DNA of 48,908 bases from the NCBI GenBank assembly GCA_025355765.1, contig JANXZB010000124.1, positions 1 to 48,908 of the forward strand, read 5' to 3'. Both the position numbers and the translations under genes were made by a program. Below are positions 11,164 to 15,041 of the stretch, one piece after another. Within the stretch, counting starts at the first letter, position 1. Each line of letters starts with the position of its first letter. The notes beneath the pieces were generated by a model. That model had not been told where the DNA came from. It searched no databases and saw only the letters and a list, made by a program, of their open reading frames with translations. Origin of the DNA: Actinomycetes bacterium (GTDB lineage: Bacteria > Actinomycetota > Actinomycetes > Nanopelagicales > Nanopelagicaceae).

Positions 11164-13419
<2,256 letters not shown>

Positions 13420-13461
13420 TAACGGGAAATGCATATGACTACGACACTATGGGAGGAAGGC

Positions 13462-14142
13462 ATGAAAACTAGTCGTCTGCACGATTACTGGACTCATGCA
13501 GATCTTCATCCAGAAGACCTCGATTATTACGTGCACCACACGCGTCGTCGTTATTTCACAATTCTTTTTATGGTTGCCGCACTGAGTGCAATTGTCTTTT
13601 CAGCATTGACTTGGGCAATCGTTTCTTCACGACCAGTAAGAGTTACATTTGCTCTTCCCAGTCAAACGCCCACAAATGTCGTTGCCAGTCCAACTCCAAC
13701 GGTCAACCTGAGTTCTTCAGGACAGGCCGCGCTTTCAGAGAATCAACTTCGGACCGAAGTGAAGAACGTTGGCGGGTCAATCTTTTGGGCAGGTGGGATG
13801 GCAGGTGCCAAATACACCTTTAATCACCTTGCTCCTGGTCAGGATTTCATCCGCTATTTGCGTAATGGACAAGGCCTTAATGACAAGACTCAGAACTATC
13901 GAGTTATCGCCACCTACAAGCAAGCCACTGCCTACGCGACAATCCTTGCCGCATCCAAACTCGGCACGGGTGTGAGCCTCACAAACCCTGATGGCTCACT
14001 GGTCTACTACGCAAAGGCAACTCCTACGCACGTATACATGGCGTTCAAGAACTTCCCATATCAGATCGAAATCTTTGATCCTGTAGCGGGCGCATCCCTT
14101 AAGTTGGCCACTACTCCTGGCGCGATACAGGCGATCATCTAA
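13462..14142 (+). CDS. Unrecognised membrane-anchored protein next to the collagen-like gene
   Basis: A 226-residue protein not assigned to a family. A short cytoplasmic N terminus (DYWTHADLHPEDLDYY, then a basic HHTRRR) is followed by one transmembrane helix at about residues 31-52 and an extracytoplasmic Ser/Thr/Pro-rich linker. The C-terminal half is a likely alpha/beta domain (segments such as KYTFNHLAPGQDFIRYLR and VYMAFKNFPYQIEIFDP). ATG 13462 is chosen over ATG 13429 because GGAGG at 13452-13456 stands 5 bases upstream of it. Its stop overlaps the next start (TAATG), so it is coupled to the signal-peptidase-like gene. Its location suggests a part in export or anchoring of the collagen-like protein. 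Confidence 0.68.
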   Translation: MKTSRLHDYWTHADLHPEDLDYYVHHTRRRYFTILFMVAALSAIVFSALTWAIVSSRPVRVTFALPSQTPTNVVASPTPTVNLSSSGQAALSENQLRTEVKNVGGSIFWAGGMAGAKYTFNHLAPGQDFIRYLRNGQGLNDKTQNYRVIATYKQATAYATILAASKLGTGVSLTNPDGSLVYYAKATPTHVYMAFKNFPYQIEIFDPVAGASLKLATTPGAIQAII

Positions 14143-15041
14143 TGGCCGTCAACGAAATCACTCCAGAATCAGTGTTAACAGAGCATCTCGATGCCAACGA
14201 AGCCGAGAACAAAAAGGGGCAGATCTTGGTTATCTATCTGCCCGAAGGCTCCGTCATTGTCGACCGTACCGACATGGATCTGACAAAAGCACCGGAACAC
14301 ATTGCGGAGCGAATCGTCACCGCGCCTGGCGCAAAACAGACTCCGACCGAACCCCCAATGTCATCTCCACAGCCGGTTCAACACACGCTTCAGGAACTGG
14401 TTCAACTTACGGTGCAAGAGGTCATGGAAACAAATTCGAATTCTAAACGAAGCCACCAGAATCCCAGCGCGTCTGAATTCGAGCCCCGTGGCCCTCGACG
14501 TGCTCACAGAGAGCGGAGGCACCGCAGACGTCATCTCAATTGGGTGCATGGGATCAATATTGTGTTCATTACCTACATAATTCTCGCTTCAGTTCTGCCG
14601 TCCGTTATGTCTTCTTTTTTCGGAGTTAGCGTCTATGCGTCGAAAGCGGCTCATCCAGCTGCTTCGATCTCCAGCGGTGACTTGATGATCTCTAGAGAAT
14701 TTCCTGCAGTCGGTCTAAAAGTCAACGATGTGGTTCTCATTCGCGGTGCCAACACGTGGCGACTTGATGCCCGCAAGGTCATCGCCAACTCAATAGACGC
14801 CAACAATGCGACTTTAACCACCGCCGCGACCTCGGGAGCTCCAACCCAGACCACGATGACGATGCCAGTTACGTCCCTGGTCCACATAGTGTCGACAATT
14901 GTTCCGAAGCTTGGATACGTTGCGATGTTCTTATCTGCAACTCTCACAAAGGTTGTCGGTTCGATTCTCATCTTGATATTGAATTTGAGTGTCCACTATC
15001 GACGGGCCCGAAGAAGCAGATTCAGTTCAAATATCCGTTAA
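14142..15041 (+). CDS. Membrane protein resembling a degenerate SipW-type signal peptidase
   Basis: A 299-residue protein. The cytoplasmic N-terminal ~125 residues include a very basic stretch (RRAHRERRHRRRH) just before a transmembrane helix at about 132-157. The extracytoplasmic part, SSGDLMISREFPAVGLKVND on into VVLIRG and later VPKLGYVAMFL, follows the layout of S26B/SipW signal peptidases (SGSMEP-x-GDLVIV ... VGDVI ... IP-x-LGY). The SGSMEP serine motif and the usual catalytic Lys/His region are not recognisable, so catalysis is doubtful. A C-terminal membrane segment lies near 262-285. SipW enzymes process biofilm surface proteins; here a non-catalytic chaperone or assembly role is possible. 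The family call is tentative. Confidence 0.5.
   Translation: MAVNEITPESVLTEHLDANEAENKKGQILVIYLPEGSVIVDRTDMDLTKAPEHIAERIVTAPGAKQTPTEPPMSSPQPVQHTLQELVQLTVQEVMETNSNSKRSHQNPSASEFEPRGPRRAHRERRHRRRHLNWVHGINIVFITYIILASVLPSVMSSFFGVSVYASKAAHPAASISSGDLMISREFPAVGLKVNDVVLIRGANTWRLDARKVIANSIDANNATLTTAATSGAPTQTTMTMPVTSLVHIVSTIVPKLGYVAMFLSATLTKVVGSILILILNLSVHYRRARRSRFSSNIR

Follow-up and report, generated by a model that had tools for sequence, protein, structure and literature searches.

A catalytically dead SipW-type signal peptidase homologue encoded beside a collagen-like gene in actinobacteria: a possible non-cutting fibre assembly factor

Introduction

Why should a signal peptidase homologue without catalytic residues be encoded directly behind a collagen-like gene? 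The question is raised by a 48,908-nucleotide stretch of DNA (the window; contig JANXZB010000124.1 of GenBank assembly GCA_025355765.1, contig C113 in our numbering) from a 1.7 Mb draft genome (G000) of a member of the Nanopelagicaceae. Here, a gene for a collagen-like secreted protein is followed on the forward strand by genes for a membrane protein, B, and a SipW-like protein, C. A preliminary description of this DNA had proposed that B and C form a dedicated export or assembly pair for the collagen-like protein. We report that C descends from a SipW-type (S26B) signal peptidase, that it belongs to a single catalytically dead clade, and that the three genes (hereafter the trio) stand together in nine genomes, and we weigh what C may do there. 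Genomes, loci and contigs are cited, where needed, by our own numbers (G, L and C followed by digits).

Results

C is a SipW-type signal peptidase homologue without catalytic residues

The features of C are as follows, in window coordinates.

14142..15041, forward strand: C, 299 amino acids (aa), catalytically dead SipW-type (S26B) signal peptidase homologue (alignment, profile and fold; predicted topology)
14652..14654, forward strand: His171 of C, at the place of the catalytic Ser (alignment)
14772..14774, forward strand: Arg211 of C, at the place of the catalytic His (alignment)
14829..14831, forward strand: Thr230 of C, at the place of the catalytic Asp of the GD motif (alignment)
14217..14267, forward strand: cytosolic motif GQILVIYLPEGSVIVDR of C (G26-R42), kept in collagen-linked copies (alignment and pattern scan)

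Taken alone, the C protein of the window matched no signal-peptidase family in Pfam or NCBIfam; a single-sequence scan of contigs retrieved no relatives, viral contigs held none, and the C profile had no real match among PDB sequences. Two of nine C relatives scanned reached TIGR02228 (E 2.6e-5 and 1.9e-6) and one also reached NF046067 (4.3e-7), all below the curated cut-offs (at best 27.9 bits versus 51.85 for TIGR02228 and 29.7 versus 190 for NF046067). When seven C proteins were compared with 17 active SipW-type relatives using hhalign, the two groups matched at 99.8% (E 2.1e-27) across 151 columns, both membrane helices among them; the active group in turn matched human SEC11A at 1.8e-18. 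The structural model of C, computed from the alignment of seven, has predicted local distance difference test (pLDDT) values of 79-93 in blocks over residues 141 to 260. Its best matches are human SEC11C (Z 10.0, root-mean-square deviation 4.2) and SEC11A (Z 9.4, root-mean-square deviation 4.5), over 133 residues each, i.e. the SipW branch of the family. The next matches are EF-P/eIF5A proteins (Z 8.0-8.7 over about 60 residues), which we read as a shared small barrel and not as kinship, and LexA-type proteins (up to 8.2). Because the Foldseek E value of the model is weak (0.027) and the EF-P/eIF5A barrels follow, the fold evidence leans on the profile comparison. Model match and profile alignment both assign C the S26B fold: C descends from a SipW-type (S26B) signal peptidase, in keeping with its earlier designation as SipW-like.

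Hydropathy divides C into a cytosolic tail, a first transmembrane helix (about 134-160), an extracytoplasmic domain (about 161-256), a second transmembrane helix (about 257-284) and a basic end. Since basic residues precede the first helix and follow the second, the tail and the end are predicted to lie inside, with the intervening domain outside. Invariant residues are packed most densely in the predicted cytosolic part, in the motif GQxxxIYxPxGxVI; apart from the C proteins of the nine trios, no ORF (open reading frame) of at least 60 aa in the loci scanned carries the pattern IY[LM]P.G.VI.

The loss of catalytic residues is a property of one clade

To place C among its relatives, 66 S26-type ORFs were aligned, leaving out L061-L066, which are the same contigs as L034, L037, L035, L039, L091 and L098 (shared sequence checked). 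Eleven of them, window C included, are dead: none retains the catalytic His or the GD motif, the SMxP motif is lost in all, and the Ser is lost in 10, the residues at its place being H, H, H, I, L, S, A, V, Y, Y and Y. The single aligned Ser, in G016, stands outside any SMxP motif. Arg occupies the His position in 7 of the 11. Thus, the earlier observation that C lacks the catalytic Ser holds and extends to the His and Asp columns, and no orthologue keeping the catalytic residues was found. Among the other 55 ORFs the Ser is kept in 55, the His in 54 and GD in 51; the lone His exception is the LepB of the window genome, with Lys as expected of S26A. Counted among these 55 as not dead are four ORFs that lack GD: L101, which keeps Ser and His, and three more, including a LepB.

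In a tree of 64 rows, from which the catalytic columns had been removed and the partial ORFs L126 and L054:1-386 left out, the 11 dead ORFs form one side of a branch with support 100/99. Most simply, catalysis was lost once in the ancestor of the clade and the gene then diversified over two genera. One clade member is a second dead signal peptidase in G015 (L036:9894-10640), which stands alone and by reading lacks the cytosolic motif.

The collagen-like gene, B and C stand together and C is under constraint

The remaining features of the trio are as follows.

11164..13419, forward strand: collagen-like secreted protein, 751 aa (Pfam Collagen, 5.1e-61; triplet count)
13237..13416, forward strand: conserved C-terminal tail of the collagen-like protein (alignment of 10; search of 296 genomes)
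13451..13460, forward strand: Shine-Dalgarno-like GGGAGGAAGG preceding B (sequence reading)
13462..14142, forward strand: B, 226 aa, one transmembrane helix and an extracytoplasmic domain (alignments, hydropathy, paralogues; no Pfam family)
14140..14144, forward strand: TAATG overlap of B stop and C start (sequence; seen in 2 of 9 loci)

The longest open frame of B runs from 13429 to 14142, with an alternative ATG at 13462; since GGGAGGAAGG lies just upstream of the latter, 13462, the start given in the preliminary description, looks the better choice. Between 10900 and 15300, a scan found one promoter-like site (2.8 expected) and nine terminator-like sites (5.0 expected), none of them placed so as to delimit an operon.

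A collagen-like gene and B lie directly upstream of 9 of the 11 dead genes, in two genera. The two unlinked dead genes are L040 (G003), at a contig end, and the extra copy in G015 mentioned above, which has neither beside it. B was found within 2.5 kb on the same strand of none of the 55 other S26-type ORFs, of which 49 have at least 1 kb of upstream sequence covered; a B could go unseen at the other 6, with less than 1 kb, and at the 25 that lie within 2.5 kb of the end of their sequence stretch. One of the 55 (L106, G464) has a collagen-like gene nearby. The genes around the trios differ: a radical-S-adenosylmethionine gene and a solute-binding protein gene (window and G015, and G013 on its one covered side), MraW (G018, one side), an aldose epimerase and an amine oxidase (G016), an ATP-binding cassette (ABC) ATPase (G002, one side) and, in the second genus, a Cys/Met pyridoxal phosphate enzyme or a response regulator. 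Because the collagen-B-C order is kept in nine genomes with at least five different neighbour sets, the linkage is more than chance.

In three pairs, the ratio of non-synonymous to synonymous substitution rates (dN/dS), computed with a simple Nei-Gojobori script, is 0.28-0.37 for C and 0.15-0.20 for B, most other pairs being saturated. The nine C genes tested contain no internal stop codons. These open frames and the constraint on C led us to reject the idea that C is a pseudogene.

We also considered that C might serve an active SipW. In the window's genus, a dead C is present in 7 of 21 genomes and an active SipW-type gene in 7 others, with no genome carrying the two together; a simple count that ignores relatedness puts the chance of such non-overlap at 0.03, in drafts that may miss genes. 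No active SipW-type match at E 1e-6 was present in the six trio genomes of this genus, where C therefore probably assists no such enzyme; as dead C and active gene never occur together in the window's genus, such a service is unlikely in it. In the second genus, G281, G492 and G512 have both a dead C and an active SipW-type gene.

The collagen-like protein carries a predicted export signal and a conserved tail

The upstream product combines the two hallmarks of the bacterial collagen-like class, Gly-X-Y repeats (about 148 triplets, in runs of at least 5) and an export signal, by reading and hydropathy the signal peptide MLSSYSS...SSASA. The signal peptide looks cleavable in five of the nine trio collagens, those with an intact start. 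LPXTG, the one sorting signal scanned for, was found in none of the nine, and no sortase is encoded among the three genes; the sortase matches of the genome sit on other contigs. The C-terminal tail, aligned for 10 proteins, has two invariant Cys (CV..xxG..xWGxC) and ends in GTTYYxLxKS.

Several side observations concern collagen-like genes. The N-terminal region of the window's collagen-like protein (11164-11660) contains repeated GP[IL]x[IV] units, which by eye recur in G281 and G512. In two genomes, C is immediately followed by a small methyltransferase-like ORF (L034:8125-8745, L035:10324-10947), and a similar one (L055:4528-5130), from another genus, adjoins a different collagen-like gene; two of the three have weak Pfam matches that fall short of the cut-offs, and the third has none. 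This ORF may modify the collagen-like protein. Finally, the collagen-like genes of two other genomes (L106:6775-7569, L136:4753-5568) stand beside a gene for a protein whose end, by eye, resembles the DUF1566-type domain of Legionella Lcl.

B belongs to an unnamed multi-copy family

As the preliminary description had it, the gene after the collagen gene encodes a membrane protein of no known family: B has one membrane helix by hydropathy, no Pfam or NCBIfam family fits it, and its profile had no match among PDB sequences. Its alignments contain the conserved stretches WAGxxxGAxYT...RYLPNGxGL...YRVIATY...PTHVY...QIEIFDP. At E 1e-10, B-family matches occur in 10 of the 21 genomes of the genus, up to eight of them in a single genome, and the collagen-linked type accounts for 6 of the 49 matches listed. 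At E 1e-3, 6 of 296 genomes of the class match; matches outside the family are G189 (1.8e-23) and, weakly, G247 and G139. A scan of contigs with the B alignment retrieved six loci, all from actinobacterial metagenome-assembled genomes, one labelled Candidatus Planktophila. Thus, B is a member of an unnamed multi-copy family of one-helix proteins with an extracytoplasmic domain. Further members are encoded in G000 itself on contigs C122, C80, C73, C77 and C68 (L084-L088), C122 having two in tandem.

Discussion

A proposed non-cutting assembly or holding factor

Fold and conservation of the gene order, the two checks named in the preliminary description, both favour its proposal, which we regard as partly supported. 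Our preferred reading, to which we give a probability of roughly 0.48, is that C is a membrane-bound assembly or holding factor that, with B, serves the collagen-like fibre without cutting. The collagen-like precursor would be exported by Sec, and the domain of C on the outer face would bind part of it, either the signal peptide or the conserved C-terminal tail, and so hold chains together during trimerisation or polymerisation, with B supplying a second contact. The ordinary signal peptidase LepB (145.9 bits, on contig C79) would take off the signal peptide; as the trio signal peptides look cleavable and the genome has LepB, this cutting need not depend on C. The GQxxxIYxPxGxVI tail may link C with a partner in the cytosol or with the export machinery. 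The sequence data show the kinship of fold, the missing catalytic residues, the single clade, the linkage of the genes and the constraint; from these we infer the binding, the assembly role and what B and the tail contribute. Binding without cutting, as proposed for the streptococcal protein SipA (see below), appears to be the best reading of C.

A number of findings weigh against this reading. Firstly, the link between collagen and the pair is not strict. When 296 genomes of the family were searched for the collagen tail, 18 matched at E 1e-3 and 11 under 1e-14; nine of these 11 are the trio genomes, and the other two, G004 and G464, possess the tail but neither B nor dead C. As the tails of the nine trios and of G464 went into the profile, the count leans towards trios and only G004 is an outside find. 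These two genomes imply that the collagen-like gene can persist without the pair. In G004 the tail directly precedes the ABC transporter set that, by reading, follows C in G002. Conversely, the solo dead C of G015 (L036) has neither collagen nor B beside it. The TAATG coupling of B and C reported for the window is real (14140-14144), but as a conserved feature we rejected it: it occurs in two of nine trio loci (window and G013), the called C start lying 24-51 nucleotides after B in the other seven. Secondly, C is less constrained than B, and the pair could act on something else in the operon. Thirdly, the predicted structure of B is poor (mean pLDDT 55; best match Dip2269, Z 5.3 over 76 residues, with mixed rows below), so we make no statement on its fold and do not claim a new one. 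Lastly, experiments that looked for SipA bound to pilin, sortase or their peptides reportedly saw no such binding (PMC4049620).

The stretches L133:5169-5393 (G004) and L039:1-3653 (G002) read as the same locus without and with B-C, and offer a natural comparison of loss or gain.

Other explanations

The two exposed domains would also suit a permanent membrane anchor, in which B and C hold the mature collagen-like protein, devoid of LPXTG and of any other obvious anchor, on the cell surface by its conserved tail. The two conserved Cys of that tail, a signal peptide that looks cleavable wherever the start is intact (5 of 9) and the lack of LPXTG in 9 of 9 are all as expected of it. The same tail, however, is found in G004 and G464 without B-C, and the genome does have sortase matches, on other contigs, in a scan that covered LPXTG alone among sorting signals. 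We consider a permanent anchor unlikely.

A fold retained with its catalytic residues lost, in a genome that has LepB at hand to cut, besides a short S26-like ORF on contig C58, could also indicate a processing regulator, C binding the precursor signal peptide uncut and thereby delaying or directing LepB cleavage. Yet the densest invariant run of C is the cytosolic motif and not the former active-site region. We consider a regulator of this kind quite unlikely.

It is very unlikely that B and C are unconnected with the collagen-like protein, C drifting in an inherited linkage. The many B-family copies elsewhere, the faster evolution of C than of B and the solo dead C (L036) would fit such a view, but not a trio kept together across at least five neighbour sets in two genera, nor a dN/dS of C well under 1 with no internal stops in nine genes. 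Finally, that C is still a protease using other residues is scarcely credible: in spite of the aligned Ser in G016 and the Arg at the His position in 7 of 11, no Ser, His, Asp, Lys or Cys at the catalytic places is common to the clade.

Relation to known systems

Returning to C as a non-cutting assembly or holding factor, the closest precedent is SipA (SipA/LepA) of the FCT-2, -3 and -4 pili of Streptococcus pyogenes. It is reported to be a non-catalytic, membrane-associated protein encoded in a surface-fibre operon, with no peptidase activity found, and to be essential for pilus polymerisation, which its deletion abolishes; replacing the Asp that stands at the Ser place, and a Lys close by, had no visible effect, and the peptide cleft is conserved (PMC4049620; PMC7900414). 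Homologues in S. agalactiae and S. pneumoniae are described as needed for pili (PMC7900414), and in some homologues, from S. suis and S. agalactiae, the dyad appears to be retained (PMC4049620). SipA and C are alike in having a signal-peptidase fold without catalytic residues and in being encoded beside a surface-fibre gene. They probably differ in branch: SipA is compared with the S26A (Ser-Lys) type, whereas C, whose nearest compared relatives are S26B, lies in the SipW/SEC11 (Ser-His-Asp) branch; SipA is not among the tree rows or the fold matches listed, its absence from the latter proving nothing. SipA acts, together with a class B sortase, on pilins that carry sorting signals, and C stands beside a collagen-like protein without LPXTG and without a linked sortase. 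Unlike SipA, C has a long cytosolic tail, two membrane helices and the partner B, and no member of its clade keeps the catalytic residues.

Bacillus SipW, encoded in the TasA/CalY fibre operons, shares with C the signal-peptidase branch and the fibre setting; C differs in having lost all three catalytic residues and in adjoining a collagen-like gene. SipW is reportedly bifunctional and said to control surface-adhered biofilm (the title of a 2012 paper by Terra et al.). By profile and tree, the closest compared relatives of C are active SipW-type genes of the same bacterial family (for example L041, L042 and L056), which keep GSMxP, HR and GDxN and have neither B nor the cytosolic motif. They adjoin secreted-protein genes read as TasA/CalY-like, one of three tested matching Pfam Peptidase_M73 (E 0.0011, below cut-off). 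In G039 (L053:5681-16935), five SipW-type ORFs lie close together among secreted-protein genes read in the same way, one of them with altered motifs (HT, GRE). By description, the trio may also be likened to CapP-TasA-CalY of B. cereus, a sortase-independent fibre with a dedicated chaperone-like assembly protein, CapP, which the abstract does not call a signal peptidase (PMC13082335).

The preliminary description had considered a non-catalytic signal-peptidase fold in a surface-fibre locus to be novel. SipA, however, already provides an instance of a dead signal peptidase in such a locus (PMC4049620). What is new about C is that it belongs to the S26B branch, is linked to collagen, has B as a partner and a cytosolic tail, and lacks a linked sortase. 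In the open-access literature, the subscription literature being mostly outside the search, we found no report of a dead SipW-type peptidase tied to a collagen-like locus, and nothing on collagen-like proteins in freshwater actinobacteria, on SipW as a pseudoenzyme, or on the catalytic activity of SipW with TasA and surface-adhered growth; Nanopelagicales together with collagen returned a phage paper only (PMC10202952).

What the locus may mean

We tentatively put forward that the trio may be a system that assembles a bacterial collagen-like fibre without sortase, and into which a dead SipW-type peptidase and the new one-helix partner B have been recruited. It may thus be, after SipA, a second and independent case of a signal peptidase becoming a fibre assembly factor, this time from S26B. 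Little is known of how collagen-like fibres are made and fixed by bacteria, and the way in which SipA promotes pilus formation is still open. The dead C with its GQxxxIYxPxGxVI tail provides a genetic marker for collagen-fibre loci in freshwater actinobacteria. A second lineage pairing a dead peptidase with a fibre would imply that such systems need the peptide-binding fold itself and not the cutting, and the collagen locus, having no sortase linked to it, offers a place to test that idea.
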